Of a DNA stretch of 64,000 bases, positions 4,502 through 64,000 are shown one piece after another (the stretch's first letter is position 1; each line of letters opens with the position of its first letter). The stretch spans positions 248,001 to 312,000 of the forward strand of contig PHBY01000001.1 in assembly GCA_002840735.1 (NCBI GenBank). Reading direction: 5' to 3'. The translations under genes were made by a program, and so were the position numbers. This DNA is from Chloroflexi bacterium HGW-Chloroflexi-2 (GTDB taxonomy: Bacteria; Chloroflexota; Anaerolineae; Anaerolineales; Anaerolineaceae). A model generated the notes under the pieces. It saw only the letters and a program-made list of their open reading frames with translations, was not told the origin of the DNA and made no database searches.

Positions 4502-4521
4502 TCAATTGGAAAGGAAAAAAG

Positions 4522-4938: not shown

Positions 4939-4961
4939 TCAAACGTATTATAGATCGATAG

Positions 4962-4991
4962 AAAAGCATGCAGATCGGCGCATGCTTTTTT
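4962..4991. terminator. bidirectional intrinsic terminator between convergent genes
   Basis: Ten-base-pair stem AAAAGCATGC / GCATGCTTTT with an 8-base loop. There are Ts on the right and As on the left, so it can end both the OsmC transcript (+) and the MFS transcript (-), whose stop codon is at 4991. Confidence 0.85.
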
Positions 4992-20392: not shown

Positions 20393-21015
20393 TCAGGTCT
20401 TTTCTGAATTGTTTTGTAACCAGAATCAAAAGCCTGCTCATTAAAGGAAATGTATTTCTGTGAAATTCTGGCTGCAATCACTTTTAACACCTCTTTTGGG
20501 TCAATCGCTAAAAGCGCCGTTAATGCACCCAACAAAACAACATTGGAAGCTTTTGGATACCCGATTTCTTCTGCAATATCCTGACCTTTTACCCAATAGG
20601 TGTTGGACGTGAATTTTTGCAAGCTCTCCTGGATATTTTCATCATCCGGATACACTGACAATCCTGAACTCACTGTGACCGGAACAATCGCATAGTCGTT
20701 AATCAAGATCATGCCATCCGGACTTATCTGTTCAATCGATCGCAAAGCCTCCAGTTTTTCAAAAGCAAGGATGATATCCGCCTCACCTTTCGTAATGATG
20801 GGTGAGTAGACATGTTCACCCCAACGAATGTATGAAATCACGTTGCCACCTCTTTGCGACATGCCGTGAATTTCTGCTTTTTTTACATCAAATCCCAACG
20901 CCATACCCAGGTCAGCGAGCACATTACTGGCAAGAATCGTCCCCTGCCCACCGACTCCAGTCAGTAAGAAATTGATGCCTTCGGGATATTTATTTTTTAA
21001 TTGTTTGATATCCAT
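20389..21015 (-). CDS. iorB: indolepyruvate:ferredoxin oxidoreductase, beta subunit
   Basis: 208 residues. This is the gamma-domain-type subunit of 2-oxoacid:ferredoxin oxidoreductases: the N-terminal LLTGVGGQGTILASNVLADLG glycine motif and GMSQRGGNVIS are characteristic. With the alpha subunit it oxidatively decarboxylates aryl pyruvates (indolepyruvate, phenylpyruvate, hydroxyphenylpyruvate) to aryl-acetyl-CoA, reducing ferredoxin. It starts one base after the iorA stop, so the two are cotranscribed and likely translationally coupled. Action on other 2-oxoacids cannot be excluded. Confidence 0.9.
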   Translation of the reverse strand: MDIKQLKNKYPEGINFLLTGVGGQGTILASNVLADLGMALGFDVKKAEIHGMSQRGGNVISYIRWGEHVYSPIITKGEADIILAFEKLEALRSIEQISPDGMILINDYAIVPVTVSSGLSVYPDDENIQESLQKFTSNTYWVKGQDIAEEIGYPKASNVVLLGALTALLAIDPKEVLKVIAARISQKYISFNEQAFDSGYKTIQKRPD

Positions 21016-21016
21016 T

Positions 21017-22858: not shown

Positions 22859-24977
22859 CTATACCTCCGTATAATCCAGCACTTTGTCTGAGAATCACTC
22901 TGCCATCCAATGCCAGACAGCCTTTTTCAAGCACCAATAATGGATTAATCTCAATTTCCTCAATTTTATCAAAATCCACAGCTAACTGACTTAATCTGAG
23001 TATGGTATCCACGACCGCATCAAGATCTGCTGGTTTCTGTCCTCGATACCCGGTTAATAACATTCCTGCTCGCGTGGTGTGGATCATGTCATAAGCATCA
23101 CTTCTGGTCATCGGAGCTACCCGAAACGAGACATCCTTGAATAATTCGACAAAAATTCCTCCCAACCCAAACATCATCATGGTACCAAATCCAGGATCAC
23201 GTTTCATTCCAATAATAACTTCCTGACCTCTTGGCGCCATTGCTTCGATAAGTACACCCTCCAGTCTTGCATCGGGCATCTTTTGTTTGATATTTACGAT
23301 CATTTCCCGGTAAGCTTCGATCACTGCTGCTTTGTCATTCAGCCCTAACTGAATACCACCCAGGTCAGATTTGTGCAGGATATCCGGAGAATTGATTTTC
23401 ATGACAACCGGATAGCCAATCGCATCTGCCAAATGACCTGCATCATCTTCGCTATGCGCGATATGCGCTGGAATTAGTGGTATTCCATAAGCCTGCAGGA
23501 GTGGGCGGGTAAGCGCTTCACCCATACTTCCAAGATGCAGCGCCTGGTCGATGGATGTTCGTACTACACCTGGATCAACATCCTTAAATGTTGCTGTTTC
23601 ATCAGTTGGCTTTGCGAGCCAATTCGCATAGACTTTCATCGCTCCCAGAATCGTTCCAACGCTCTCCGGAAATACAACCATCGGCACCTTACGACGATGC
23701 AGAAGTTTTCGGGGCTCTAATACCAGCGAATCTCCCATAAAAACGGCGATGACAGTTTTATCTGTGGATTCAGAAATGGTGGCAATTTTCTCAGCAACCT
23801 CGACTGGATTTACCAGGGCTTGCGGAACCAGAATGGGTATGACCACATCCACATTTGGATCATCCACCAATAATTGCATGGCTCTCTCATATTCGTGTGG
23901 TTCTGCCCCACCCAACATATCCACAGGATTGGCAACCTGTGCGCTGGGATTTAGCACTTCACGCAGCGCCTGCATGGTTTCAGGTTGCAAATCAGCCATC
24001 GTAAAACCATTATTCGCCAGACTATCAGATAATAAAGCAGCCGGACCTCCCGAATTTGTTAGGATGGCAACATTTTTTCCCTTAGGTAATGGTTGCAATG
24101 CCAAAGCTTGTGACACATCAAATAAATCATTAACAGCCTGAACCTCTACCACACCACTTTGAGCGAAAGCAGCCTGGTAGGCCGCATGACTACCCGCCAA
24201 CGAACCAGTATGTGAAGAGACTGCTCTGGCTCCTGCAGAGGTTCTTCCGGCTTTAAGCAATACAATCGGTTTCTTTTGGGTGACCTTTTTTGCAATAGAT
24301 ATGAACTTTTTCCCATCCTGTATCTGCTCGATATATGCTGTAATAACCTGAGTATGCGGATCATCGCCCAGGTATTCAATCATATCTGTCTCGGTGACAT
24401 CAGCTTCATTCCCCAAACTGAGAAAATGTGAAAAACCAATCCCTTTGCCTTTTACATAATCGACGACCCCACCCAGGACTGCCCCGGATTGTGACAAAAA
24501 GCCAATCCCACCGGTATCCGGCACACCGGAAATAAAGGTTGTATTTAACCCGGTATGCAAGCTCATCGTTCCAACACAATTGGGTCCAACCATACGCATG
24601 TCATGGTCTTTTACAAATTGCAGAATTCTTTGCTCTAAAGCTTCTCCCTGTGGACCTAATTCTTTAAACCCACCAGAGATCACTGTAATTGCCTTGATTC
24701 CTCTTTTTTCACAATCCTGGATAACTGGTAAGATGACACCAGCTGGTAAGACAATCACTGCCAGGTCAACAGGATCAGGAACACTCAGAATATCTGGATA
24801 ACAACGATATCCCAAAATTTCATCCACTTTCGGATTGACTGGATATATTCCCCCTTTGAATCCATATAAAGTCAGGTTTTTTACAATCCCATAACTGAGT
24901 TTATTGGGCTTGTTGGTGGCACCGATGATTGCCACACCGTTTGAGTCAAAGAATGGTTTTAAACGATCTTGCATCAA
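22833..24977 (-). CDS. acyl-CoA synthetase (ADP-forming), alpha-beta fusion
   Basis: 714 residues, the single-chain form in which the CoA-binding/ligase alpha part (~1-460) is joined to an ATP-grasp beta part (~480-714). The N-terminus shows a Rossmann CoA-binding domain (VAIIGATNKPNKLSYG). H256 in SHTGSLAG sits where the family's phosphohistidine lies. The ATP-grasp domain begins near GYPVVMKINSPDILHKSDLGG. The enzyme converts acyl-CoA, ADP and phosphate to free acid, ATP and CoA. Its overlap with iorA suggests aryl-acetyl-CoA as the physiological substrate, though acetyl-CoA is also used by relatives. Confidence 0.92.
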   Translation of the reverse strand: MMQDRLKPFFDSNGVAIIGATNKPNKLSYGIVKNLTLYGFKGGIYPVNPKVDEILGYRCYPDILSVPDPVDLAVIVLPAGVILPVIQDCEKRGIKAITVISGGFKELGPQGEALEQRILQFVKDHDMRMVGPNCVGTMSLHTGLNTTFISGVPDTGGIGFLSQSGAVLGGVVDYVKGKGIGFSHFLSLGNEADVTETDMIEYLGDDPHTQVITAYIEQIQDGKKFISIAKKVTQKKPIVLLKAGRTSAGARAVSSHTGSLAGSHAAYQAAFAQSGVVEVQAVNDLFDVSQALALQPLPKGKNVAILTNSGGPAALLSDSLANNGFTMADLQPETMQALREVLNPSAQVANPVDMLGGAEPHEYERAMQLLVDDPNVDVVIPILVPQALVNPVEVAEKIATISESTDKTVIAVFMGDSLVLEPRKLLHRRKVPMVVFPESVGTILGAMKVYANWLAKPTDETATFKDVDPGVVRTSIDQALHLGSMGEALTRPLLQAYGIPLIPAHIAHSEDDAGHLADAIGYPVVMKINSPDILHKSDLGGIQLGLNDKAAVIEAYREMIVNIKQKMPDARLEGVLIEAMAPRGQEVIIGMKRDPGFGTMMMFGLGGIFVELFKDVSFRVAPMTRSDAYDMIHTTRAGMLLTGYRGQKPADLDAVVDTILRLSQLAVDFDKIEEIEINPLLVLEKGCLALDGRVILRQSAGLYGGIDEKNLIRE

Positions 24978-35257: not shown

Positions 35258-35497
35258 ATGCAGATATGTATTAAATTGTTGGCGAATTACCGTAATAATC
35301 TTCCAGAAGGCACAAACGGGGATCAAATTTCCATTGATGTGCCCGAAGATATTCGTCCCGAAAAGATCCTGGAAATGTTTTCAATTCCACCAATTCCAGA
35401 AAGTGTCGTATTAATCAATGGTCGAACCATGGTTCCTGGAGAACCATTAAACGAGGGTGATGTTGTATGTGCCTTTTCCGCAATGGCTGGAGGCTAA
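35258..35497 (+). CDS. MoaD/ThiS-like ubiquitin-fold sulfur carrier associated with AOR
   Basis: 79 residues ending in the diglycine tail AMAGG, the hallmark of ThiS/MoaD carriers that are adenylated and thiocarboxylated. The body fits the beta-grasp fold (DVPEDIRPEKILEMF, then VLINGRTMVPGEPLNEGDVV). It lies 23 bases before the aldehyde oxidoreductase gene, which needs a tungsten/molybdenum-pterin cofactor. The likely job is donating sulfur for pterin dithiolene formation, as a MoaD substitute dedicated to this enzyme. No partner E1-like gene (moeB/thiF) is visible nearby. Confidence 0.8.
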   Translation: MQICIKLLANYRNNLPEGTNGDQISIDVPEDIRPEKILEMFSIPPIPESVVLINGRTMVPGEPLNEGDVVCAFSAMAGG

Positions 35498-35520
35498 TTA
35501 ATTTAAGAGGAGAGACAAAA

Positions 35521-37362
35521 ATGTTTGCCTGGCATGGAAAAATTTTAAGAGTAAATCTGAGTACAAAAACGATAAAAGTCGAAACTGTTGATAAAGATTT
35601 CGCCGCAAAATATCTTGGCGGCCGTGGATGGGCGATAAAATATCTTTTGGATGAAATGGATCCGAAAGCTGAGGCGCTTTCACCAGAGAATATGATGATT
35701 TTTGCCACAGGTCCACTCACTGCGACGGTTGCTCCAACTGGAAATCGCTATATGGTTGTCACCAAATCTCCTCTCACGGGAGCGCTCAGCGACTCAAACT
35801 CCGGCGGTTTCTTCCCAACTGAAATGAAACGCACCGGTTTTGATATGTTCATCTTTGAAGGGAAGGCTGAAACCCCTGTTTATTTATGGGTGAATGACGA
35901 TCATGTTGAACTCAGACCAGCTGACCAAGTTTGGGGAAAAATAGTACCCGAAACCGAAGATATCCTCCGCTCAGAAACGGATCCGAAAGCCAGAGTTGCC
36001 TGCATTGGACCTGGAGGTGAGAACCAGGTTCTGTTTGCTTCGATTATGAATGATAAACATCGAGCAGCCGGGCGTTCAGGGGTTGGCGCAGTGATGGGTT
36101 CCAAGAACCTGAAGGCAGTCGTCGTTCGCGGTTCACACAAAGTTGATGTTGCACATCCTGAAGAATTGGAAGCGTATTGCAAAGCGATGGCCAAAAATGT
36201 TGGCGATGTCATGAAAGCCGGTGGAGCCATGCGTGTGTATGGAACCTCTTACGTGCCACCCATTACCAATGAAATGGGTATCTTGCCGACCAGGAATTTT
36301 CAATCCGGCCGTTTTGAAGGGATTGCTGGTATTACCGGAGATGTCATTAATGAAAAATACCTGAAGAAGTCAAAACCGTGTTTTCGCTGTCCAATTGCCT
36401 GCGGTCGCGATACCAAAGTAGATGATCCAAAATATGCGGGTGAAGGTGAAGGTCCTGAATATGAAACCATAGCTGCTTATGGAAGTGGATGTGGTATCGA
36501 TAACATGGCTGCTATTATTAAAGCCAACTATCTGTGTAATGAGTATGGATTGGATACAATTTCTGCGGGAATGACGATTGCCTGTGCCATGGAAATGTCA
36601 GAAAAAGGGATTATCCCAAAGGATACGATTGGGTTTGATCTGAAATTTGGTGATCCAGATGCGATTATTACACTTACCCATCAGATTGCGAACATGCAAG
36701 GATTCGGGAAAGAATTAGCTCAGGGAAGCTTCCGATTAGCTAACAGTTACAGGCATCCTGAGTTGGCGGTTACAGCCAAAAAACAGGAATTTCCAGGATA
36801 CGATCCACGCGGATCGAAAGGAATGGGATTGCTCTATGCAACATCCAATAAAGGTGCATCTCACATGGCTGGCGATTTAGCCTACAGTGAAGTCTTTGGT
36901 GTCCCACAAAAAATTGATTCATTATCCCTGGAGAACAAACCCGAACTGGTGAAACGCTTCGAGGATGCTTTTGCGGTTATTGATTCAACTGGATTATGTG
37001 TTTTTCTATCCGTGCGGTATATGTTCGAAGACAAAGTGGAATTATGGCCAACACCGCTAACAGAAATCATGAGATTATCTACCGGACATCCATTTACACA
37101 ACAAAGTTTGTTGGATGCCGGTGATCGCATATTCAACATGGAAAGACTTTTCTTGTTGAAAGCAGGATTCACGAAGGAAGATGATACACTTCCTCATAGA
37201 ATGTTACATGAACCTCTCCCGGAAGGACCCGGGAAGGGTCATGTTGTTGAGTTGGATAAAATGTTACCGCGGTTTTATGAATTGCGCGGTTGGAGCCAGA
37301 ACGGTGTTCCGACCAGCGATAAACTGGAAAGTTTGGCGATTGCTGAGTATCAATTTATATAG
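35521..37362 (+). CDS. aor: tungsten-dependent aldehyde:ferredoxin oxidoreductase
   Basis: 613 residues from ATG 35521 (AGAGGAGAG upstream); an in-frame start at 35467 overlaps the previous gene and is unlikely. The four cluster cysteines C287, C290, C294 (CFRCPIACG) and C493 match the spacing of the archaeal AOR. N-terminal motifs GKILRVNLST and YLGGRGWAIKYL and the pterin-binding segments are intact. The enzyme oxidises aldehydes, including those from 2-oxoacid decarboxylation, to acids with ferredoxin as acceptor, or reduces acids to aldehydes. It likely works alongside IOR in amino-acid fermentation; substrate preference among AOR, FOR and GOR types is not certain. Confidence 0.92.
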   Translation: MFAWHGKILRVNLSTKTIKVETVDKDFAAKYLGGRGWAIKYLLDEMDPKAEALSPENMMIFATGPLTATVAPTGNRYMVVTKSPLTGALSDSNSGGFFPTEMKRTGFDMFIFEGKAETPVYLWVNDDHVELRPADQVWGKIVPETEDILRSETDPKARVACIGPGGENQVLFASIMNDKHRAAGRSGVGAVMGSKNLKAVVVRGSHKVDVAHPEELEAYCKAMAKNVGDVMKAGGAMRVYGTSYVPPITNEMGILPTRNFQSGRFEGIAGITGDVINEKYLKKSKPCFRCPIACGRDTKVDDPKYAGEGEGPEYETIAAYGSGCGIDNMAAIIKANYLCNEYGLDTISAGMTIACAMEMSEKGIIPKDTIGFDLKFGDPDAIITLTHQIANMQGFGKELAQGSFRLANSYRHPELAVTAKKQEFPGYDPRGSKGMGLLYATSNKGASHMAGDLAYSEVFGVPQKIDSLSLENKPELVKRFEDAFAVIDSTGLCVFLSVRYMFEDKVELWPTPLTEIMRLSTGHPFTQQSLLDAGDRIFNMERLFLLKAGFTKEDDTLPHRMLHEPLPEGPGKGHVVELDKMLPRFYELRGWSQNGVPTSDKLESLAIAEYQFI

Positions 37363-52605: not shown

Positions 52606-53343
52606 TTACTGTAATGATCTTTGTAAATTCGACAGTTGCCCAGCGACTGATCCATCAACGACACGATCACCAATTTTTACTACCAATCCACCTAAAATGG
52701 CAGGATCTACCCTGAAACTGATGCTGGCTGTGTTGCCAATTTTACTGAGAACGTCCTGTTTAACAGTCTGTTGTTCCTCAGATGTCAATGGTAAAGCACT
52801 GGTAACTTCAGCTCCTGAACCGGAAACTGATTGATCTTCAATGACAACCACTCTTCCATTTTTCACACCACTGAAGAATTCGGCCAGGAGAGTTCTTTGA
52901 CGCTTCTCATCTAAAGCTTCCCCAATCAATTTCTGGGCTGCAGCAATAGCGATTGCAGAAACGTCACCACGCATCTCACTTAATAATCTAACGCGTTCTT
53001 CTTCAACTTCGGACAAAGCATTTTCTCTTTGTTTGTCAATACCTTGTTTGGCTTCTGCCACCATTTCTTTTTGAAGAGCTTCTGCCCGCGAGGTAGTTTC
53101 CCGAATAATCTCATTGGCTTTTAACTGTGCATCGCCAATAATTTTATCTGCAGCTTTTTCTGCGGTCGCTCGCGCATCAGCGGCAATACGTGCATCTTCA
53201 AGACCCTGGGCAATTTTATTTCTTCGATCTTCCAGCATTTTCGTCACAGGACCAAACACCCAGGCACGCAACACAACATAAACAATCGCAAAATTTATGA
53301 TGTGTACCAATAAAAATCCCAGATTTAAACCAAGCTTTTCCAA
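52606..53343 (-). CDS. atpFH: ATP synthase b subunit fused to the C-terminal domain of delta
   Basis: 245 residues. Residues ~1-155 are subunit b: one N-terminal membrane helix (LLVHIINFAIVYVVLRAWVF), then a long charged coiled coil (DRRNKIAQGLEDARIAAD onward). Residues ~160-245 match only the C-terminal domain of delta (TSEEQQTVKQDVLSKIG, then DPAILGGLVVKIGDRVVDGS). The six-helix N-terminal delta domain that binds the alpha subunits is missing. Joined, it forms a peripheral stalk linking Fo to F1. Known b-delta fusions in mycobacteria keep the full delta, so this short form is unusual. It is the last gene of the operon; no atpA, G, D or C follow. Confidence 0.85.
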   Translation of the reverse strand: MEKLGLNLGFLLVHIINFAIVYVVLRAWVFGPVTKMLEDRRNKIAQGLEDARIAADARATAEKAADKIIGDAQLKANEIIRETTSRAEALQKEMVAEAKQGIDKQRENALSEVEEERVRLLSEMRGDVSAIAIAAAQKLIGEALDEKRQRTLLAEFFSGVKNGRVVVIEDQSVSGSGAEVTSALPLTSEEQQTVKQDVLSKIGNTASISFRVDPAILGGLVVKIGDRVVDGSVAGQLSNLQRSLQ

Positions 53344-53361
53344 TGTTCGCTCCTTTCTTGT

Positions 53362-53598
53362 CTAGAGGACGAACAACATCATGAAGGAAACAACCAGACA
53401 ATAGATCGCGATTGCCTCAGCGAACGCAATACCTAAAATCATAGTCGTTAATATGTTGCCATATGCATCAGGATTGCGAGCCATACCATTCAGTGCGCCC
53501 TGGACCAATAAACCGATACCAATACCTGCGCCTAAGGCTCCAATCATTGATAATCCGGCACCAATAAATTTTGCAGCTTGAATTAATTCACCTTCCAT
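53362..53598 (-). CDS. atpE: ATP synthase subunit c
   Basis: 78 residues from the ATG at 53598, chosen for GGAGG four bases upstream; an in-frame extension to 53619 would overlap the atpB end. Two membrane helices are joined by the polar loop NGMARNPDAYG. The ion-carrying Glu lies in GIAFAEAIAIY. The helix-1 motif reads GAGIGIG without the Gln of Na+-binding rings, and Ala follows the Glu, so proton coupling is likely (inference from known motifs). Confidence 0.93.
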   Translation of the reverse strand: MEGELIQAAKFIGAGLSMIGALGAGIGIGLLVQGALNGMARNPDAYGNILTTMILGIAFAEAIAIYCLVVSFMMLFVL

Positions 53599-53619
53599 TA
53601 TTCCTCCATAAATTTGCAA

Positions 53620-54594
53620 TTAATGATCAGCGTTTTCGCCATGCCCTTGTGTGGCCTGAACCATAAAGACCATGGTTAACATACCGAACACAAACGCCTG
53701 GATTGCTCCCATAAATAATTCGAACAAGAATATGCCAGCAGGGGCAAATATGGGCAACATGGATCCCAATAAAGCCACCAACACCGTTCCTGAAAACATT
53801 ACGCCAAATAGACGGAATGTAAATGATAATATTTTTGCAATTTCTGAAATTAATTCCAAAAAACCCACCAGAAAATCGATAAACCCCAATGCAGGTTTTT
53901 TAAATATTGTTCTAACATTCAAAAATTTTGAAAAATAACCAATACCTTGCGTTTGCACCCCGATAACCTGAGTCATAAATACTGCGATCAGCGCGAGTGA
54001 AAGGGTGAAATTAAGGTCTGTCGATACACCACGGAAGAAGGGAGTGACGATATAACCCTCACCCTCATGGGCTTCGACAGGAAGAATGTTGTACCAATTA
54101 CCACCTAAAGCCTGGGTTTCATATCCATGATCGTAATGATGGAGCACACCAATTGTCTCCATACCAGGAATAATTTTCATAAAATTGGCTACAATCACAA
54201 TAATCATGATCGATGCAAACCAAGGAAAGATCTTCTTGGTATATTTCCCGGCTGAGGTCGCAGTCATGTTGTAAAGAACTTCAACCAGCATCTCCATAAT
54301 TGATGTAATGCCTTTGGGAACCAAATTTCCACCCTGCAATGCTTTTTTCACCGTTAAAGCCATCAATATGATGATAATATCCAGCACCAGCAATGTCGGC
54401 AAAGTATTTACCAGATAAAAATCACCAATGACTGGAAGGGTGAACAATGGTTCTAATAAAATTCTTTCCGGAGCAACCTGAATGTGTGGTTGAATTGGAG
54501 ATGCTATAAAGGTTATAGAAATCCAGGTAAGGATTAGTAAACCTAACACCCACCATCGGTATTTTCCCCACTTCCACTTACGAGTTTTTTCCAA
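53620..54594 (-). CDS. atpB: ATP synthase subunit a
   Basis: 324 residues from a TTG start with AAGGAGG six bases upstream; the start overlaps the atpZ end by 17 bases. The essential arginine lies in SFTFRLFGVMFSG, and helices typical of subunit a follow. It is longer than E. coli's 271 residues, through an N-terminal extension and a ~35-residue loop (MIGVLHHYDHGYETQ region) between helices. It forms the proton half-channels of Fo. Confidence 0.93.
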   Translation of the reverse strand: MEKTRKWKWGKYRWWVLGLLILTWISITFIASPIQPHIQVAPERILLEPLFTLPVIGDFYLVNTLPTLLVLDIIIILMALTVKKALQGGNLVPKGITSIMEMLVEVLYNMTATSAGKYTKKIFPWFASIMIIVIVANFMKIIPGMETIGVLHHYDHGYETQALGGNWYNILPVEAHEGEGYIVTPFFRGVSTDLNFTLSLALIAVFMTQVIGVQTQGIGYFSKFLNVRTIFKKPALGFIDFLVGFLELISEIAKILSFTFRLFGVMFSGTVLVALLGSMLPIFAPAGIFLFELFMGAIQAFVFGMLTMVFMVQATQGHGENADH

Positions 54595-54886
54595 GTTCTA
54601 CCTCCTTATGTTCGGGATTTCCTTGCGGTTGAGATGTTTTAATCCTGGAAATTGCTACACGCACAACTATTAACATAACACCCAAAGATATGGGTATACT
54701 GACAATCATTAATCCAATTGTGTACATTGGCTTTGTATCGAATCGATTATCTAACCACAATCCCCCAAATAATGCGCCAACTACTATTAATAAGGTTAAG
54801 CAACCTACCTGTCCAGCAACACTGGCAAGTGTCAGATTAAGAAATTTTGTTTTTGAATTATCCGTTGCAGGTTTCTCAGGTGGCAT
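54578..54886 (-). CDS. atpZ: AtpZ/AtpI-like ATP synthase accessory membrane protein
   Basis: 102 residues with two membrane helices (residues ~20-45 and ~55-80), the GLWLDNRFDTKP loop between them and a polar C-terminus. It matches the AtpZ family found ahead of atpB, proposed to help c-ring assembly or Mg2+ supply. It overlaps atpB by 17 bases and lies 33 bases downstream of nuoN, linking the nuo and atp gene runs into one transcription unit. Confidence 0.8.
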   Translation of the reverse strand: MPPEKPATDNSKTKFLNLTLASVAGQVGCLTLLIVVGALFGGLWLDNRFDTKPMYTIGLMIVSIPISLGVMLIVVRVAISRIKTSQPQGNPEHKEVELGKNS

Positions 54887-54919: not shown

Positions 54920-56380
54920 TCAATGAAGCAGCATCAAATTTGTAGAAGCAACTTCCAGCCAATTCAACCAGGGAGTAAAAATCACACCCATAACAATGAT
55001 CCCAATCACACAAACAGTCAATGCCAGCTTCCAACCCAAATATATGGTTTGCGATTTTGTTTCCTCGCTATCTGCAAATGTGATTCTGAGCACTGTTAGA
55101 TAATAGTATAAGGCAATGATCGAATTAATAATACCGATGATCAACAACCAGATTAAGCCTGCATCCATGGCTGCCATAAAAACAAGCACTTTACTTATAA
55201 ATCCACCAAATGGTGGGATTCCAGCCAGTGATAAAACTGCGATGAGGAATACAAGTGCAATGCCCGGAGATTGTTTCATCAAACCCTGGAAAGACGCAAT
55301 CTCACTGGATTTCTTGGTTTTTTCAACAATTTGGATAACACCAAATATGGCCAGGTTGGTAAACAAATAAGCCAGCAGGTAATACATGGAAGCTTTGAAA
55401 CCCATTGCAGTTCCAGATGCCACTCCAATCAACATATAGCCAGCATGTGCAATCGATGAATATGCAAACATACGTTTGATATCCTTCTGCACCAAAGCGA
55501 GTAAATTGCCAACAAACATGGATGCGGTAGCCATCAGTGCTAATAACAATGTCCAGCTTTGTGGTTCTGGTGAGAAAATTGAAACCATGAACCTCATAAT
55601 AACAACAAAACCTATTGCTTTTGATGCGGTGGAAAGATAACCAGCAATCGGTGTCGGTGCCCCCTGATATGCATCTGGTGCCCAAAAGTGAAATGGAAAT
55701 CCGGAAATTTTTGTCCCAAATCCCACAACTGTTAATAACAAAATGAATATCAACAACCCTGTAGAAATTTTTCCAGCTTCAATCGCTGCCAGGATTTCAG
55801 GGAAATGTGTACTGCCGGTGAAGCCGTACAAAAGACTGAATCCATACAATAATACAGCTGATGTGAAAGCGCCAAATAGGAAATATTTCAAACCACTTTC
55901 AATTGAAAAATTATTTTTCGTAAGAAATCCGACCAGAACATAAAGGGGAATCGCAGTCGTTTCAATCGCCAGGTAGAGCAAAATAATATTAGATGAGGCT
56001 GCCATCACACTCATACCGATCACGCTCAATAACAACATGGCAAAGTATTCGCCTTTGTCATTTACTTCCTGATGATACATGGAGAATAAAGTCGTGATCG
56101 CTGCACCCACCATCACAATTAATTGGAATGTAAAACTGGCTGCATCCACCCGAATCATCCCACCCCATGCAAAACGGGTGGTATTTCCTGGAGATAAGAA
56201 TAAAAGAGTAACCAGAATAATAATTAACAGACCCAAAAACGTGATCCAACTTAATGTGTTTCCATTAACATGTTTTTTTCTAAAAACATCAACGATCATC
56301 ACGATGGCAATCAATCCAAGTAAAAGGATATCTGGCAAAATGGCTATCAAATCAAAATTAGTGATCATATTCGACCCCAT
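54920..56380 (-). CDS. nuoN: NADH-quinone oxidoreductase subunit N
   Basis: 486 residues with about 14 membrane helices, an antiporter-like subunit of complex I. The start ATG directly follows the stop of the second nuoM, with GGAGG seven bases upstream. Family motifs include YLAIETTAIPLYVLVGF, KISGFPFHFWAPDAYQGAPTP and FAYSSIAHAGYMLIGV. It pumps protons as the antiporter module nearest NuoK in the membrane arm. Confidence 0.95.
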   Translation of the reverse strand: MGSNMITNFDLIAILPDILLLGLIAIVMIVDVFRKKHVNGNTLSWITFLGLLIIILVTLLFLSPGNTTRFAWGGMIRVDAASFTFQLIVMVGAAITTLFSMYHQEVNDKGEYFAMLLLSVIGMSVMAASSNIILLYLAIETTAIPLYVLVGFLTKNNFSIESGLKYFLFGAFTSAVLLYGFSLLYGFTGSTHFPEILAAIEAGKISTGLLIFILLLTVVGFGTKISGFPFHFWAPDAYQGAPTPIAGYLSTASKAIGFVVIMRFMVSIFSPEPQSWTLLLALMATASMFVGNLLALVQKDIKRMFAYSSIAHAGYMLIGVASGTAMGFKASMYYLLAYLFTNLAIFGVIQIVEKTKKSSEIASFQGLMKQSPGIALVFLIAVLSLAGIPPFGGFISKVLVFMAAMDAGLIWLLIIGIINSIIALYYYLTVLRITFADSEETKSQTIYLGWKLALTVCVIGIIVMGVIFTPWLNWLEVASTNLMLLH

Positions 56381-57853
56381 TTATGCACCTCCCAGAATTG
56401 CCAGAATATGATTTACGCCAGTCTCTATCAGCGGTACCATCAGACTGGGTACCAATCCGATAACGATCATAAACAAGCTGAGCAATCCAATAACGATTTT
56501 ATCTTTGACAGTGATATCCTTTACTTTGCCTTCGAATTCTTTTGGTAGATCTCCAAAGAAAACCTTGCGTACAACCAGCAAAATATAGGCGGCGGTCACA
56601 ACGATGGAAATCACAGATATGATCGCCACAATCGGTGCTACCTGCCAAACACCCATATAAATGGGTATTTCTGCAATAAAACCGGAAAGACCCGGCATAC
56701 CCATCGATACCAGACCACCAACGATAAATCCAACCATCGCCCATGGCATTACTTTATATAAACCACCCAATGATGCGATATCACGGGTATGTGTTCGATC
56801 ATATACCATACCAACAATAGAAAAGAAGAGAGCTGTCATGACACCATGCGAGAACATTTGTAATCCAGCGCCTAATAATCCATTGTAATTTAAGGATGCA
56901 AATCCAATTAACACCAACCCCATATGTGACACCGATGAAAAACCAATCACATATTTAAAATCTTTTTGAATCATGGCGATAAAAGCGCCGTACACCACAT
57001 TGATCGTCGCCAAAACCATTATCCAGGTAGCCCAATGCCTGGCGCCTTCAGGCAATAACATGATCCCTACTCGTAGTGCTGCAAAAACGCCAACTTTCAT
57101 CTCGACACCTGCCAATAACATTGAAATCGCTGTTGGGGCTGCCACATGACCATCCGGTGCCCAGGAGTGAAATGGGAAGATACCTCCTAATATTGCAAAT
57201 CCAAGGAAGACAAATGGGAACCAAATTCTTTGCATCTCTACGGAGAAACCGGCGTTTTCAAGCAACAAAAGATCGAATGTCTTCTCAGGTGAAGCCTGGT
57301 AAATAGCCAATGCGCCAATCAAAGCCAGGACAGAACCAATAAATAAGTATAGTGTAAGCTTCATACCGCCATAATTACGGGTTTTGGGGTATCCCCATAT
57401 CACAATCATCAAGTACTTCGGAAAAACTGCTAATTCGAGGAAAAAGAAGAGCAAGAATAAATCCAGTGAGGAAAAAACACCTAAAACACTGGTAGCTAAA
57501 AACATAAGATAGGAGAAGAATTCGTTTGGACGGTTATCAATATTCCATGAAACCATCACACCCGAAAAAACAACCAGTCCTGTCATCACCAGCATAGCAA
57601 CACCAATACCATCTACACCCAGATGGTAGGATATTCCCAATTGGGGTAACCACGGGAGGTACTCTGTGAATTGATAGCCTGCTTTCTCGATACTATAACT
57701 CGCCCAGATAAGGAGGGTTAATAAAAGCACAAGACTGGAAGCTGCCAGTGCTATCGGCCTGATCCAACCGGGTTTCTGACGCCCAAATAAAAGGATGATC
57801 AGTCCGGCGATTAGTGGTATAAAAATGGTTACACTCAGGATAGGAAAATCCAT
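56381..57853 (-). CDS. nuoM: NADH-quinone oxidoreductase subunit M, second copy
   Basis: 490 residues. Antiporter-like subunit with the key Glu in FLLFFFLELAVFPKYLM, a conserved FPFHSWAPDGHVAAPTA segment, and KYVIGFSSVSHMGLVLIGF. It is clearly NuoM-like but diverges from the 516-residue NuoM just upstream, so the pair is not a recent duplication. GAGGTG lies five bases before ATG. It sits between the first nuoM and nuoN with 12-base and 0-base gaps. Two NuoM copies in one operon point to a complex I with an extra antiporter module. Confidence 0.93.
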   Translation of the reverse strand: MDFPILSVTIFIPLIAGLIILLFGRQKPGWIRPIALAASSLVLLLTLLIWASYSIEKAGYQFTEYLPWLPQLGISYHLGVDGIGVAMLVMTGLVVFSGVMVSWNIDNRPNEFFSYLMFLATSVLGVFSSLDLFLLFFFLELAVFPKYLMIVIWGYPKTRNYGGMKLTLYLFIGSVLALIGALAIYQASPEKTFDLLLLENAGFSVEMQRIWFPFVFLGFAILGGIFPFHSWAPDGHVAAPTAISMLLAGVEMKVGVFAALRVGIMLLPEGARHWATWIMVLATINVVYGAFIAMIQKDFKYVIGFSSVSHMGLVLIGFASLNYNGLLGAGLQMFSHGVMTALFFSIVGMVYDRTHTRDIASLGGLYKVMPWAMVGFIVGGLVSMGMPGLSGFIAEIPIYMGVWQVAPIVAIISVISIVVTAAYILLVVRKVFFGDLPKEFEGKVKDITVKDKIVIGLLSLFMIVIGLVPSLMVPLIETGVNHILAILGGA

Positions 57854-57865
57854 TCCATCACCTCT

Positions 57866-59401
57866 TTAGAAGAAAAAATTTACTGCATGATTGATTAAAT
57901 TCAATAATGATGCTGGCCAGATTCCAATCCAGAGCATCAAAACCATCAATGGAGCGATCACCCAAACTTCCCGAGTACTGATTTCCGGGATCGCCAACCA
58001 ACGATCATTTCTTGGACCGTGTAAGACACCGGCAATAGCCTTCAGAATATAGACGCCTGTAAAGAACAAACCGATCATGGATAAAGCTGTGGCAAGCGGG
58101 AAAATTCCCCAGGCACCTCGCACCACAAGGAACTCAGAGACAAAACCATTCAATCCTGGTAAGCCCAAAGCTGCCATTGCTGTAAACACAAAAATGGCTC
58201 CATATTTGGGTAGAATTGGCCACAAACCACCCAATTCATCTAACTGACGGGTGTGGGTGCGATCATATATGACACCTACCAGGAAAAACATTCCTGCAGA
58301 TGTTAATCCATGGTTGAACATTTGAAGAATGGATCCGTTTAACGCGATCGTGCCGCTTTCAATAACCCCGTTGTCTGTTGATTGCCAGGCAAAGGCAGCT
58401 GCAGCAATCCCTAAGACAACAAAACCCATATGATTGATGGATGAGTAAGCCACCAACCGTTTCAAATCTTTTTGCGCAAAAGCTGCCAGAGCTCCAAAGA
58501 TGATGGCTGCTGTGGCTAAAACTGCCAATGCTCCAGCATAACGATTCGCTTCGACCGGGAAAAATGGAATAACCAGTCGAATAAACCCATAAGCGCCTAA
58601 TTTTAATAGAACACCAGCCAGGATCATTGATCCAGCCGTGGGTGCTTCAGTATGGGCATCCGGTAACCAGGTATGCACTGGCCAGATCGGCACTTTGATG
58701 GCGAATGCCAACACGAAAGCCCAAAAGGCGATTGTCTTAACTGAAGTTAATGAAAGCCCTAACGGTATTGCATGTTGGAAATTTTCTTCGGTTAACGTTG
58801 GCCATAATTGGTATATTTTTACCAGATCGAAACTTCCTGTTGTGATACCAACAATTTGTATCGAGAGTAGCAATCCCAGGGACCCTGCCATGGTAACCAG
58901 GATAAATTTGAGAGCAGCATAATTGCGTTTTGCCCCCCCCCATTGGTTGATTAGAAAATACATGGGGATTAAACCAATTTCCCAAAATAAGAAAAACACC
59001 AATAAATCTAAGGAAATAAATACACCCAGAACCCCTGTTTCCAGGAATAAAAACAGTGCCATATAAGCTTTGACCTGATCCTTGATTCCATAGGAAGCCA
59101 GGATGGCTAATGGAGTCAGTATTGTTGTCAGGAGAACCATTGGTAACGAAATGCCATCCACACCAAAGTGGAAAGATGATCCGATAGCAGAAAACCAGGG
59201 TAAAAATGTCTCAAATTGAAAACCAGGTTGGGTTTTGTCAAACTGGAACCATAAAAGAATCGATAACAAGAACGGAATTAAGGAACTTCCAAAAGCGACC
59301 CATCTAATCGTGTTTTTGTTGCTTGTTGGTAAAATAACAACCAGAATAGCTGCCAGGGTTGGAAGTAAAAGAATGTAAAAAAGTAGATTATTTTCCATCA
59401 T
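57866..59401 (-). CDS. nuoM: NADH-quinone oxidoreductase subunit M, first copy
   Basis: About 511 residues from ATG 59401, preceded by AAGGA; a TTG at 59416 is also in frame but has no site. Antiporter-like motifs include VFFLFWEIGLIPMYFLINQW, KVPIWPVHTWLPDAHTEAPT and LVAYSSINHMGFVVLG, the closest to classical NuoM. It follows nuoL and precedes the second nuoM. With the key Glu and Lys residues kept, it should be an active proton-pumping module. Confidence 0.94.
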   Translation of the reverse strand: MMENNLLFYILLLPTLAAILVVILPTSNKNTIRWVAFGSSLIPFLLSILLWFQFDKTQPGFQFETFLPWFSAIGSSFHFGVDGISLPMVLLTTILTPLAILASYGIKDQVKAYMALFLFLETGVLGVFISLDLLVFFLFWEIGLIPMYFLINQWGGAKRNYAALKFILVTMAGSLGLLLSIQIVGITTGSFDLVKIYQLWPTLTEENFQHAIPLGLSLTSVKTIAFWAFVLAFAIKVPIWPVHTWLPDAHTEAPTAGSMILAGVLLKLGAYGFIRLVIPFFPVEANRYAGALAVLATAAIIFGALAAFAQKDLKRLVAYSSINHMGFVVLGIAAAAFAWQSTDNGVIESGTIALNGSILQMFNHGLTSAGMFFLVGVIYDRTHTRQLDELGGLWPILPKYGAIFVFTAMAALGLPGLNGFVSEFLVVRGAWGIFPLATALSMIGLFFTGVYILKAIAGVLHGPRNDRWLAIPEISTREVWVIAPLMVLMLWIGIWPASLLNLINHAVNFFF

Positions 59402-59419
59402 ATTTTCCTTAATCAATCC

Positions 59420-61594
59420 CTAAAACAATATCCAATAGAAGATAAAACCACCCAGTAATGAAAATGCGAGCGCAAGTATCATATAGTCCTGAATCCGGCC
59501 AGATTGTGTGACTTTGAGATTGGTTCCGATTTTCCTTGTCCAGGACGCGATGTTGTCACCACCGCGATTGATCACCGGTAAATCGAACCAATATCTGAAT
59601 TTATCACCCAACCAGATGCTTATGCTTCCTATTCCATGCAGGAAGCCATCAAAAATCTTTTGATCAAAGAATTGATAGACAATTTTTTCCGATACCCATT
59701 GGGCGGGCTTAATGAATACCAATTGATAGAACTCATCAATATAATATTTGTTTGCCAATACTTTATAGAATCCGGAGAGTGACCACTCCAATGGATCTTT
59801 ATCGGTTTCTTTGATCCTGCGGTAAAGGAGTCCACCCAGGAATAAACCGCCCAGGCTAACAACCAGGGAGGTGATCAATGGGATAGAGCTATGATGTTCA
59901 ACCACAGCATGTTCTCCATGCAGCATGGTCCCTAAAAATGTCTCGAGCCAGTTAGGAACCAGACCTCCAATGACAGGGAAGTATTCTGGTATACCCACCC
60001 ACCCGATTGTGATGGCAAAAAATGATAATACGACCAATGGAACTGTCATAGTACTGGGTGTCTCGTGCGCATGTTTTGCAGCTTCAGTACGTGCTTCACC
60101 TAGGAATACAAGCGAAATCTGCCGCATTATATAAAAAGCCGTAATAAACGCGGATATTGCCAACACCCAAAATACAATACTGAAGCCCCCATTGAAAGCT
60201 CCGGAAAGGATTTCATCTTTGGACCAAAAGCCTGCTGTTATAAATGGAAAACCTGCCAGGGCGAACCCTCCAATAACAAAGGTTGCAAAGGTTTTCGGCA
60301 TTTTTTTATAAAGTCCGCCCATGTTATACATATCCTGAGGATCAATGTGTTCCTGTGTATGTAATATCCCATGCTCCATGCCGTGGATAATCGATCCTGA
60401 TCCGAGGAATAACAAGGCTTTAAAGATGGCGTGGGTTACCAGATGAAAAGCTGCGGCAACATAAGCGCCAACGCCTAAAGCGGCAATCATGAATCCCAAT
60501 TGAGAGATGGTGGAATAGGCAAGCACTCTTTTCACATCTCTTTGGGCAACCGCAATTGTCGCAGAGAATAATGCAGTAAATGAACCAATCACGGCCATCA
60601 CCAGCATGGGTGTGGTGAGTGCTGCTCCTCCATCCCAACCTGCTGACAGCACCGGGAAGAACCGTAACGCCAGATAAACACCGGCTGAAACCATCGTGGC
60701 GGCATGAATCATTGCTGAAACCGGGGTTGGGCCTTCCATTGCATCCGGCAACCAAACATGCAATGGGAATTGGGAGCTCTTGCCAACTACACCCATAAAT
60801 ATGAGCAATCCGATCAGCCCAGCCCAGGACAAACCGAGAACTGGCGACATGGATGTGGCGAGATAGTGAATAACATCCTCAGAAAAAATTACTTCGTATT
60901 GAAGACTGCCTGTAATGGTGTAAAGAGCTGCCAGACCAATCAACATAAAAACATCGCCAATACGGGTAGTTAGAAAGGCTTTTTGAGCGGCAGCTTTTGC
61001 GGATGGTTTGGCATACCAGAAACCGATCAACAGGTAAGAGCATAAACCCATAATTTCCCAACCAATATACAGGGTCAGTAAATTGTTGCTAACCACCAGC
61101 AAATACATGGCAAACGCGAATAATCCAAAGAAACCGAAAAACCTGGCATACATCGGCTCGATCGAAGGAACATGCTGATGTTTTCCTTCTTGATCGATGA
61201 TTTCCGCTCCATGTGGTGGCAGTCCAGGTCGATCATGATCCCCTTCAGGTTGACCAAAATTATGATATCCAACACTGTAGATAAAGATCATTAGAATGGT
61301 CCAGGAGACGAAGAACAAAGTGATTGTTGTAAGGGGGTCGACCTGCACACCAATTTTCAACCATGTTTCACCAGTTGGTAACCAGGAAATTGAACTGGTA
61401 AGCCCCTCTTCAATGACCTCCTGATTCGTTACTGCAAAAACAAAAATGATCATACTGAGCAACCAGGAGATGGCAGCTGAACCGATGGCCAATGAATGGC
61501 TCAGGCGATTGTTTTTATAGGTTACCAAAAAAATGATAAAGAAAGCCAGAAGTGGTGCTAATGGGATCAACCAGGTGATGAGTTCATAATTCAT
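59420..61594 (-). CDS. nuoL: NADH-quinone oxidoreductase subunit L with extended lateral helix
   Basis: 724 residues, about 110 longer than E. coli NuoL. The antiporter core is normal (LYIGWEIMGLCSYLLIGFW, KSSQFPLHVWLPDAMEGPTP, LAYSTISQLGFMIAALG). A ~40-residue hydrophilic insert lies near residue ~110-150 (QPEGDHDRPGLPPHG). The C-terminal lateral helix region, residues ~616-704 from KYYIDEFY to GRIQDY, is 89 residues, against roughly 60 in ordinary NuoL as recalled, ending in a final membrane helix. A longer lateral helix is needed to clamp an additional antiporter subunit, which fits the second nuoM. Confidence 0.94.
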   Translation of the reverse strand: MNYELITWLIPLAPLLAFFIIFLVTYKNNRLSHSLAIGSAAISWLLSMIIFVFAVTNQEVIEEGLTSSISWLPTGETWLKIGVQVDPLTTITLFFVSWTILMIFIYSVGYHNFGQPEGDHDRPGLPPHGAEIIDQEGKHQHVPSIEPMYARFFGFFGLFAFAMYLLVVSNNLLTLYIGWEIMGLCSYLLIGFWYAKPSAKAAAQKAFLTTRIGDVFMLIGLAALYTITGSLQYEVIFSEDVIHYLATSMSPVLGLSWAGLIGLLIFMGVVGKSSQFPLHVWLPDAMEGPTPVSAMIHAATMVSAGVYLALRFFPVLSAGWDGGAALTTPMLVMAVIGSFTALFSATIAVAQRDVKRVLAYSTISQLGFMIAALGVGAYVAAAFHLVTHAIFKALLFLGSGSIIHGMEHGILHTQEHIDPQDMYNMGGLYKKMPKTFATFVIGGFALAGFPFITAGFWSKDEILSGAFNGGFSIVFWVLAISAFITAFYIMRQISLVFLGEARTEAAKHAHETPSTMTVPLVVLSFFAITIGWVGIPEYFPVIGGLVPNWLETFLGTMLHGEHAVVEHHSSIPLITSLVVSLGGLFLGGLLYRRIKETDKDPLEWSLSGFYKVLANKYYIDEFYQLVFIKPAQWVSEKIVYQFFDQKIFDGFLHGIGSISIWLGDKFRYWFDLPVINRGGDNIASWTRKIGTNLKVTQSGRIQDYMILALAFSLLGGFIFYWILF

Positions 61595-61606
61595 TGATAT
61601 CCTCCA

Positions 61607-61927
61607 TTAACCTTTGAGTACATTAATATCTGAAGCAACAACGGTTTTTCGCAGCCGGTATACAGCAATGATGATTGCCAATCCAATTGCTACTTCGGCA
61701 GCAGCTGCGATGATCACTACAGCTGCAAAAACCAATCCGTTGATTTCTGTGTATCCAAGGGATTGAGAATGATAATGCCAGAATGCCAGAATATTAATAT
61801 TGACTGCATTTAACATTAGCTCAATACTGATCAACACAGCCACAGCATTCTTTCGGGAAATAGCGCCAAACATGCCAACACTGAATAACACTGCGGCTAA
61901 AATTAAATACCAGGAAAGTGGGATCAT
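61607..61927 (-). CDS. nuoK: NADH-quinone oxidoreductase subunit K
   Basis: 106 residues, three membrane helices. The helix-2 Glu (LISIELMLNAVNIN) and helix-3 Glu (AAAEVAIGLAIIIAVYR), both part of the proton path, are visible. The start overlaps the nuoJ end by 4 bases. Confidence 0.94.
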   Translation of the reverse strand: MIPLSWYLILAAVLFSVGMFGAISRKNAVAVLISIELMLNAVNINILAFWHYHSQSLGYTEINGLVFAAVVIIAAAAEVAIGLAIIIAVYRLRKTVVASDINVLKG

Positions 61928-62451
61928 TTGTTCTCCCCTCCTTTTTTGTCCATGGCAATATAAACACCCCCAACCAGAGCCCCTAAAAGTAATAATGACG
62001 CAAGCTCAAAAGGTAGAGCATAACCTGCCGGGTCCAGTAATCCTTCTCCAAATGCGATGATGCTCTCCTGTCCTTGAAATTCCAAAGGTACCAGTGTTGT
62101 ACTGATTACAGCACTGCTGGAAAGCTGACTGATGAAAATCACAGCAAATATCAGAACAAGTAACATCACAATCCCCCATGATCGATTGATTTGAATTTCG
62201 TCATCGCTCATAATGTTCCTGGTTAACATGATGGCAAATATCAAAATAATAGCGATCGCCCCGATGTAAACAAGGATTTGTACTGCTGCAAAGAAACTTG
62301 CCTCTAATAAAGCAAAAATGATCGCTACACCCATCAATGTAACAATCAGCCATAAAGCTGCATGAAAGATTTTCCGTAAACTGACCACAAATATGGCGGA
62401 GAGAATTGTGACCAGAGAGACGAGGATAAAAACAATTTGTAAGGGAGTCAC
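61924..62451 (-). CDS. nuoJ: NADH-quinone oxidoreductase subunit J
   Basis: 175 residues, five membrane helices. The conserved third helix with the pi-bulge region reads AAVQILVYIGAIAIILIFAIM. It starts one base after the nuoH stop, so nuoI, normally between H and J, is absent here. The C-terminal helix ends LASLLLLGALVGGVYIA. Confidence 0.93.
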   Translation of the reverse strand: MTPLQIVFILVSLVTILSAIFVVSLRKIFHAALWLIVTLMGVAIIFALLEASFFAAVQILVYIGAIAIILIFAIMLTRNIMSDDEIQINRSWGIVMLLVLIFAVIFISQLSSSAVISTTLVPLEFQGQESIIAFGEGLLDPAGYALPFELASLLLLGALVGGVYIAMDKKGGENK

Positions 62452-62452
62452 A

Positions 62453-63685
62453 TTAACCTCCTGTTTCCGATTGAGTAAATGGGTTTGTTGGTTGTGCTAA
62501 AGCTCGCTTTTTAGTAGAGACTACTTTTCGCTCTTTTTCTTTTTCACACTTCCTGACGATCGCAAATCCAACCACATATAATGCCACATTAATCACCAAA
62601 AAAATTAGAACTTGCAGCCATTGATTCGTGCCTTCAATCAATTTTGTTACAAAAGCGACGACGATAAACAAAGCTAAAGCCAATGGTGTCAGAAATTTCC
62701 AGGTGATTGCCATCATCTGATCCACACGGAAACGTGGCAAGCTACCTCGAATCCAAACACCCAGGAACCAGACAATTACAGATTTGATTAGCAAATAAAC
62801 AAAACCCAAAATCGGTATTTGCTCAGCGCCTGGACCTCTCCATCCGCCGAGGAATATTGATGAAAAGATCACCGCGGATGTAAATGCTCTTAAGAAGTCA
62901 GCCACATAAAACATGCCGAATTTAAGACCGGAATATTCCACATTAAAGCCTGCAACCAGCTCTGACTCAGCCTCGGCTAAATCAAAAGGCGCACGGCCAT
63001 TCTCTGCAATTGAAGCGATGAAGAAAATAAAAGCACCTAACGGAAGAAAGAAGATATAAGCTATATTTTGCGATTTTACAATATCTCCCAGTGCCATGGA
63101 GCCTGATAATATGACTGAAGTCAACAAAACAATCGCCATTGGAACTTCGTAGGAAATCATCTGCGCAGAGGCGCGGAAAGCAGCCAGCATGGAATATTTG
63201 TTGTTGGATCCCCAACCAGCCAGAATGACACCAAGCTCTCCCAACCCTCCTACACCGAGGATGAACAACAAAGCGACATTGAGATTCGATCCACGTACAC
63301 TATCTGAAAAAGGAACGACTGACCATAATAAAAGAACGGATGCAACGGAAATTATGGGTGCGAGATGGTAAGGGATAGGATCAACTTCATCAGGAATGAT
63401 GTGTTCTTTAATAAATATCTTTAACATGTCTGCAACGGGTTGAAAAATTCCCCATGGACCAACTCTATTTGGACCTAATCTATCCTGTAGTCTACCGATG
63501 ATTTTTCGTTCAGCCCAAATGAGGATCAATGTAAATAACAAAGCCCCTGTCCCGAGAATGGCTGCACCAATTAAATACACAATGAAGGTTTGCCACTCTG
63601 GTGCGACCCCCCAATTTTCCAATAATTGCACAATCCAGTTTTCAATTCCAATGATTGGGTCACTTAAGAATTCCAGTATTTTCAT
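62453..63685 (-). CDS. nuoH: NADH-quinone oxidoreductase subunit H
   Basis: About 410 residues from ATG 63685, preceded by GAGAG; an upstream in-frame start at 63736 would overlap nuoA. It is the quinone-proximal membrane subunit. Motifs ERKIIGRLQDRLGPNRVGPWG, AENGRAPFDLAEAESELVAGFNVEYSG and RGSLPRFRVDQMM are diagnostic. A ~30-residue charged, lysine-rich C-terminal tail extends past the last helix. It lies 20 bases after nuoA, with nuoB-G not between them. Confidence 0.95.
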   Translation of the reverse strand: MKILEFLSDPIIGIENWIVQLLENWGVAPEWQTFIVYLIGAAILGTGALLFTLILIWAERKIIGRLQDRLGPNRVGPWGIFQPVADMLKIFIKEHIIPDEVDPIPYHLAPIISVASVLLLWSVVPFSDSVRGSNLNVALLFILGVGGLGELGVILAGWGSNNKYSMLAAFRASAQMISYEVPMAIVLLTSVILSGSMALGDIVKSQNIAYIFFLPLGAFIFFIASIAENGRAPFDLAEAESELVAGFNVEYSGLKFGMFYVADFLRAFTSAVIFSSIFLGGWRGPGAEQIPILGFVYLLIKSVIVWFLGVWIRGSLPRFRVDQMMAITWKFLTPLALALFIVVAFVTKLIEGTNQWLQVLIFLVINVALYVVGFAIVRKCEKEKERKVVSTKKRALAQPTNPFTQSETGG

Positions 63686-63705
63686 GCTATATCTCTCTTT
63701 TGGAA

Positions 63706-64000
63706 TTATTGCCAGGTTAAAGCATCTTTTCGCCACACATATAAATACCCACCTAATAGGATGAGTATAAATATGATAGCTTCAACAACTGCAAATAATG
63801 CTAAATTCCCATAAGCAACTGCAAATGGGAACAAAAACACTATTTCCACATCAAAAATTAAGAAAATTAATCCATACAGATAATATTGGATTTTAAATTG
63901 AATCCATGTAGGGTCAAAAGTTTCCATCCCACATTCATAAACCGAATTCTTAATTTTTGTTGGTTTTTTGGGTGATAAGAGGCGTGCCAGAAAGATGGCT
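63706..64000 (-). CDS. nuoA: NADH-quinone oxidoreductase subunit A (5' end beyond the window)
   Basis: The open frame runs from the stop at 63706 to the window edge, giving ~97 visible residues; the missing N-terminus is about 20-35 residues. The diagnostic segment NSVYECGMETFDPTW (the YECG loop) is followed by helices FKIQYYLYGLIFLIFDVEIVF and a final helix. An internal ATG at 63927 is not the start, because the conserved YECG lies upstream of it. Confidence 0.93.
   Translation of the reverse strand, partial: AIFLARLLSPKKPTKIKNSVYECGMETFDPTWIQFKIQYYLYGLIFLIFDVEIVFLFPFAVAYGNLALFAVVEAIIFILILLGGYLYVWRKDALTWQ

Follow-up and report, generated by a model that had tools for sequence, protein, structure and literature searches.

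A two-NuoM complex I membrane arm in an Anaerolineaceae genome and the missing lysine of its second NuoM

The 64,000-nucleotide stretch of Chloroflexi bacterium HGW-Chloroflexi-2 analysed here (hereafter the window; positions 248001–312000 of contig C7 in genome G000, an assembly of 40 contigs) carries, on the minus strand between positions 54920 and 64000, the genes of a complex I membrane arm in the order nuoA-H-J-K-L-M1-M2-N, in which two nuoM genes follow one another between nuoL and nuoN. The locus belongs to the already described kind of complex I with two NuoM subunits (2M), known also from Chloroflexi. Its second NuoM (M2) has a leucine in place of the lysine that canonical NuoM proteins carry in transmembrane helix 7 (TM7; other helices are numbered likewise), a loss that is, going by the alignments, specific to the M2 clade in our sample. 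We put at roughly 0.7 the probability that the window encodes a 2M-type membrane arm assembling with NuoB, NuoCD and NuoI subunits encoded on contig C11, and that M2 is a member of an old lysine-less lineage that works as a relay module without the usual switch. Earlier papers are cited throughout from excerpts of their text.

Two distinct NuoM proteins, one without the TM7 lysine

Open reading frame (ORF) calls and NCBIfam models agree on the genes, single strand and position that the original prediction had given for the cluster; in coordinate order, the eight ORFs are assigned to N, M, M, L, K, J, H and A. Against the NuoM model TIGR01972 (cut-off 263.8 bits), the first NuoM (M1; 57866..59416, minus strand, 516 residues from a TTG start) scores 525.4 bits and M2 (56381..57853, minus strand, 490 residues) 461.4 bits, versus 194 and 161 bits, respectively, for the best Mrp or hydrogenase models. 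An origin of either protein among Mrp or hydrogenase antiporters was rejected on these family scores, and by score neither groups with them. The two proteins differ throughout, as had been claimed: at 34% identity across 511 aligned positions, neither is a recently made copy. An origin of the pair by tandem duplication was likewise rejected, M1 and M2 falling into separate clades. An AlphaFold2 model of M2, with a mean predicted local distance difference test (pLDDT) score of 92.4, has NuoM, ND4 and NdhD chains as its best Foldseek matches.

The further claim, that the key Glu/Lys motifs are intact in the two NuoM proteins, holds for M1 and fails for M2. M1 has the complete canonical set (Glu146 in TM5, Lys241 in TM7, Lys272 in TM8 and Glu428 in TM12), whereas M2 keeps Glu140 in TM5, Lys253 in TM8 and Glu395 in TM12 and has Leu222 (codon 57188..57190, minus strand) where the TM7 lysine would be. 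In a local alignment, with the position counted from the printed rows, this leucine falls on Lys234 of Escherichia coli NuoM. The neighbouring NuoN (54920..56380, minus strand, 486 residues; TIGR01770, 404.8 bits, cut-off 332.6) keeps Glu140, Lys224, Lys254 and Lys397 in TM5, TM7, TM8 and TM12.

For comparison, we used the best 80 loci retrieved with the window NuoL, a set that leans towards NuoL proteins of this kind, more loci having matched. The alignment of 110 NuoM proteins (ORFs shorter than 441 residues were left out) has the TM7 lysine in 0/42 members of the M2 clade versus 68/68 M1 or canonical proteins, the replacing residue being leucine in 41 cases and threonine in one. The same 42 proteins retain the TM5 glutamate and the TM12 glutamate without exception (42/42 each) and the TM8 lysine in 39 cases; the short NuoM ORFs of loci L039 and L087, checked afterwards, are also without the TM7 lysine. 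The controls, NuoN and NuoL, retain their TM5, TM7, TM8 and TM12 residues in 79/79 rows each. We then turned to Nitrospirota, of which 118 genomes were searched. Among the matches listed, which do not amount to a census, 17 tandem candidates were picked and 16 are truly L-M-M-N loci; here TM7 carries lysine in 16/16 M1 proteins (a seventeenth row of this group, L161_4148, is a wrong-frame ORF and was not counted) and isoleucine in 16/16 M2 proteins, and lysine is present in 30/30 single NuoM proteins. With the Nitrospirota taken from those matches, the TM7 lysine is missing in 55/55 second NuoM proteins with readable sequence from four phyla, namely 38 (the 42 rows of the M2 clade less four that are sole NuoMs), that of L039 and the 16 from Nitrospirota. 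No report of this loss was found among the titles and abstract openings searched, where Chadwick et al. (2018) is represented only through citing papers, and the excerpts on Chloroflexi 2M complexes do not mention it (PMC7117926, PMC8004040, PMC3150298).

Ancestry of the second NuoM and the lateral helix of NuoL

The closest match to the window's NuoL is the 73% identical protein of a Chloroflexi metagenome assembly, followed by those of Anaerolineaceae and Anaerolineales, which points to a probable place of the organism within Anaerolineae. The order A-H-J-K-L-M1-M2-N is widespread among the relatives, where the original prediction had proposed looking for it, and its recurrence in so many of them means that it is not due to chance. 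In quick trees built without bootstrap, M2 proteins form one clade with a Shimodaira–Hasegawa-like approximate likelihood ratio test (SH-aLRT) value of 98, and the second partner in the 2M loci of the sample always comes from this clade. At its base stand NuoM proteins of Desulfoscipio, Syntrophomonas, Desulfotomaculum and a Goldbacteria assembly, all from sets with a short NuoL lateral helix; in these four genomes the lysine-less protein (L072 11909–13426, L106 11869–13374, L111 11908–13419 and L103 3341–4828) is the only NuoM over the cut-off. Locus L072 is from Desulfoscipio geothermicus DSM 3669, a named strain open to study.

When Nitrospirota were added to the tree (119 rows, thinned by hand), the lysine state changed once, and the Nitrospirota M1 proteins grouped with canonical NuoMs such as that encoded on contig C10 of the same genome as the window, not with the M1 of Chloroflexota. 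On the simplest reading of these trees, an old NuoM lacking the lysine would have been paired on at least two occasions with different canonical NuoMs. The founding paper on 2M complexes (Chadwick et al. 2018) reportedly argues for a convergent origin, to judge from its title as given in reference lists, and a history of at least two pairings fits that claim.

The second structural hallmark of the locus resides in NuoL (59420..61594, minus strand, 724 residues; PRK06590, 592.8 bits; TIGR01974, 566.8 bits). The lateral helix (HL) segment of this protein, E621–Q697, is 77 residues long, versus 49 in the genome's own single-NuoM NuoL, and alignment of the two places an insertion of 27 residues at positions 666–692 (59519..59599, minus strand); a lateral-helix insertion of about 26 residues has been described for the NuoL of 2M complexes (PMC9040806). 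In the AlphaFold2 model, whose nearest solved structures are NuoL, ND5 and NdhF chains, HL forms one unbroken helix from residue 616 to 696 (59507..59749, minus strand), that is, 81 residues or about 121 Å at 1.5 Å per residue. Across 79 NuoL proteins (those of 77 loci, the window and contig C10, the truncated NuoLs of L047, L061 and L065 having been dropped) the length of the segment is bimodal: 61 are long (73–85 residues), 17 short (48–50 residues) and in one, L099, the segment is missing. All 38 NuoLs that stand beside two NuoMs, the window's included, are long, as are 16/16 from two-NuoM Nitrospirota loci among the matches listed.

Self-similarity along HL in the long NuoLs is highest at an offset of 26 residues (−0.46), followed by 27 (−0.68), out of 26 offsets tried; in the short NuoLs the offset of 26 (−0.69) comes second to 19. 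Since a strict HL motif occurs in two copies in only 8 of the 61 long NuoLs, a duplicated repeat is no more than hinted at. NuoL contains another peculiarity, a loop rich in histidine and acidic residues (residues 113–150, 61145–61258) with about 30 extra residues, which precedes the region best matched by NuoL models, has low model confidence, and is found in many Anaerolineae 2M NuoLs and absent from other NuoLs.

What the second NuoM may contribute

Current models give the ion pair between the TM7 lysine and the TM5 glutamate a part in the gating of lateral proton transfer (PMC10212512, PMC11496545). In the lineage of M2 this pair would have been lost through replacement of the lysine by leucine or isoleucine, leaving what may be a proton-conducting module devoid of the usual ion-pair switch. 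Gene order suggests the membrane order N-M2-M1-L, in which M2 could pass on a charge signal, or conduct, between N and M1, and the extended lateral helix of NuoL would bridge the additional subunit. The presence of a fourth antiporter-like subunit is well supported. That it adds a fifth proton to each cycle has, on the present sequence evidence, about equal odds.

The published 2M hypothesis treats the added subunit as a full fourth pump, so that five protons would be moved per two electrons even though the TM7 lysine is missing from M2. We rate this somewhat below an even chance. The near-complete retention of the TM5, TM8 and TM12 residues in the M2 clade speaks for it, and so do experiments on related proteins: the K217A variant of E. 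coli NuoN, in which the TM7 lysine is replaced, shows 68–109% pumping, a modest loss, its NADH oxidase activity being roughly halved (PMC13073174), and proton conduction through isolated antiporter modules becomes faster when removal of the glutamate charge opens the ion pair (PMC11496545). However, three residues of E. coli NuoM, K234, K265 and E144, are described as essential (PMC5061711), and the residue that takes the place of the TM7 lysine is conserved rather than drifting (leucine in 41/42 of the clade and isoleucine in 16/16 Nitrospirota M2 proteins among the matches listed).

Slightly less probable in our estimation is that M2 is a non-pumping spacer or relay in a complex that still moves four protons, the subunit serving stability, gating or directionality, for instance in reverse electron flow. 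In favour of such a role, none of the second NuoMs with readable sequence has the switch lysine; HycC of the E. coli formate hydrogenlyase also has leucine at this place, and 18 substitutions in HycC were without effect on activity (PMC5061711). Locus L041 adds to this, as it has a single NuoM and a long HL and branches from within the two-NuoM Anaerolineales when NuoL proteins are placed on a tree, which suggests that M2 was lost while the helix was kept. Against a mere spacer stand the strong conservation of the other proton-path residues in M2 and the four basal genomes, in which a lysine-less NuoM is the sole one over the cut-off.

Several observations weigh against our preferred reading, a switch-less relay bridged by a long lateral helix. 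The insertion in HL is modelled with moderate confidence (block means of 61–81), and 16 loci combine a long HL with a single NuoM and a NuoN, so that the length of HL alone is no proof of a bound second NuoM. No spare NuoM was found in any of the 17 such genomes searched (the 16 and that of L088), most of them metagenome assemblies in which absence is not final: each NuoM over the cut-off adjoins its own NuoL match (in G017, one NuoL match is partial and below the cut-off). Control genomes with two NuoMs each contained three NuoMs, two of them in tandem (8/8), and the three short-helix controls one NuoM each. Since HL insertions of this kind have already been reported in other Manganitrophaceae complexes (PMC9040806), finding a long helix where no second NuoM is present has some precedent. 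The TM7 position is, moreover, the sharpest charge difference between M1 and M2 and not the sole one: Arg or Lys at M1 position 320 occurs in 0/42 M2 proteins (aromatic in 42/42) versus 67/68 others, and Glu at M1 position 257 in 0/42 (a small residue in 42/42) versus 60/68. A lysine six residues past the TM5 glutamate, present in 19/42 M2 proteins including that of the window and in 0/16 Nitrospirota M2 proteins among the matches listed, may partly compensate in some of them. Finally, going by the K217A data, the sister subunit NuoN has no strict need of its TM7 lysine. With that TM5-proximal lysine confined to part of the clade, no compensating lysine common to all M2 proteins was found, and in the 42-row comparison no charged column had been gained within TM7 by the thresholds used. 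The longest HL segment in the sample (85 residues; L071, NuoL at 4078–6243) lies in a locus that nevertheless has one NuoM.

It has long been disputed how quinone chemistry is coupled to pumping in complex I and whether one proton is moved by each antiporter subunit; 2M complexes are cited as a case in which one more subunit may mean one more proton. Should that subunit regularly come without a residue regarded as essential for the ion-pair switch, these complexes would offer a natural test both of the role of that residue and of the one-subunit-one-proton rule, with natural controls in genomes that have a long HL and one NuoM and in those whose sole NuoM lacks the lysine. Two findings deserve follow-up: no second NuoM that we examined has the lysine, and the length of the helix is not tied to the number of NuoMs. 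We propose, as a tentative idea to which we give clearly less than even odds, that the second NuoM descends from one ancient lysine-less lineage captured at least twice beside different canonical NuoMs and functions as a switch-less conduit for lateral proton movement, so that the enzyme would not simply be a five-proton complex I; the lateral helix, still long after the probable loss of M2 in L041, may also have been extended before M2 was gained.

Peripheral subunits, gene neighbourhood and known systems

The original prediction of a complex I with four antiporter-like subunits (L, M, M, N), of the 2M type known from the literature, is borne out by synteny, by the HL extension of NuoL and by separate nuoB, nuoCD and nuoI genes. 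These last three lie on C11 and encode proteins of 221, 577 (a fused NuoCD) and 204 residues, so that the genome has the Chloroflexi-type arrangement, in which nuoLM1M2N stand together while nuoBCDI, with C and D fused, are found elsewhere (PMC7117926). The membrane arm A, H, J, K, L, M1, M2 and N would most likely join these C11 subunits. A second, complete nuoA-N set with a single NuoM, a short nuoK and NuoEFG is located on C10, and the membrane arm could in principle share the peripheral arm of that complex or stay unassembled, the cluster itself being devoid of B, C, D and I. We regard this as very improbable, since a second NuoB, a fused NuoCD and a NuoI are at hand on C11, as reported for Chloroflexi 2M complexes (PMC7117926), and the Chloroflexaceae loci L069 and L070 carry B-C-D-I inside the same cluster. 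An assembly artefact or chimeric contig, conceivable for a genome in 40 pieces, can be dismissed almost entirely, given that the same gene order occurs in many independent genomes and that the counterparts with which M1 groups and those with which M2 groups come from the same relatives.

The genome has six matches to the NuoF-type domain PF01512, on C10, C12, C14 and C35, and none on C7 or C11; NuoE and NuoG were not seen by eye in the ORFs flanking both parts, no search having been aimed at them. The arrangement thus differs from a 14-subunit NADH dehydrogenase with NuoE, F and G beside the other subunits, and with no NuoF-type match beside either part a dedicated NADH module is not evident. 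The product would be a quinone-reducing proton pump lacking an evident NADH-oxidising module of its own. The ferredoxin-dependent oxidoreductases noted in the window at the outset are confirmed by Pfam: an aldehyde ferredoxin oxidoreductase (35467–37359) and a ferredoxin oxidoreductase (20392–22858) which we take to be of the indolepyruvate type, lying some 17.5 and 32 kb away from the nuo genes, respectively. Reduced ferredoxin may accordingly be made in the cell; its use by complex I does not follow from these enzymes. At 20392–24977, Pfam finds a ferredoxin oxidoreductase pair beside an acyl-CoA synthetase-like protein, presumably an indolepyruvate-type pair with an ADP-forming enzyme, and these genes suggest amino-acid fermentation. 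Elsewhere on the contig (L015 2135–10605; C7, 128–137 kb) lies a separate membrane complex, similar to hydrogenases or complex I, that has L- and N-like antiporters of its own and adjoins a molybdenum hydroxylase-like gene recognised by eye from the translations.

The remaining genes of the cluster, all on the minus strand, are nuoK (61607..61927, 106 residues), nuoJ (61924..62451, 175 residues) and nuoH (62453..63736, 427 residues from a GTG), assigned with NCBIfam, and nuoA (63706..64000, cut at the window end; full length 118 residues). They are tightly packed, with 1 base between H and J, a 4-base overlap of J and K, and 12, 3, 12 and 0 bases for K-L, L-M1, M1-M2 and M2-N; nuoH and nuoA overlap only if nuoH begins at its GTG, and by eye an internal ATG at residue 18 is the likelier start. 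The predicted range of 0–33 bases is right at its lower end for M2-N, but J/K overlaps and the 33 bases belong to the gap between nuoN and atpI. There begin atpI, atpB, atpE and an atpF/atpH fusion joining b and delta subunit domains (52606..54886, minus strand; Pfam), which are not part of complex I. Upstream of nuoA no nuo gene was seen in the next 9 kb. Scans of the region returned 12 terminator-like sites (11.5 expected) and 47 promoter-like sites (32.1 expected) and contributed nothing to our conclusions.

Overall, the locus most closely resembles the 2M complexes of Chloroflexi, with which it has the L-M1-M2-N order in common (PMC7117926, PMC8004040, PMC3150298). A separate nuoBCDI with fused CD is described from Lost City Chloroflexi (PMC7117926), and a second, canonical 14-gene complex I from Chloroflexus aggregans (PMC8004040) and C. 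aurantiacus (PMC3150298), both as here. No decisive difference from these complexes emerges; in the window nuoN runs into the atp genes, an adjacency seen in 15/80 related loci, all of them Chloroflexota with two NuoMs (for some of the 80 the available stretch is too short to judge). Two-NuoM complexes are also described from Nitrospira (PMC6606698, PMC12342949), and the Nitrospirota loci examined here share with the window a second NuoM of the same lysine-less clade and an HL extension of about the same size. Their M1, however, comes from another branch of NuoM, and the pairing in Nitrospirota therefore probably arose separately. Canonical complex I, represented by the C10 set and by E. coli, has homologous A, H, J, K, L, M and N subunits but a single NuoM, a lateral helix shorter by about 27 residues, and NuoEFG. 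HycC of the E. coli formate hydrogenlyase shares with M2 the leucine at the TM7 lysine place (PMC5061711); unlike HycC, M2 is by score a complex I NuoM and not a hydrogenase subunit.

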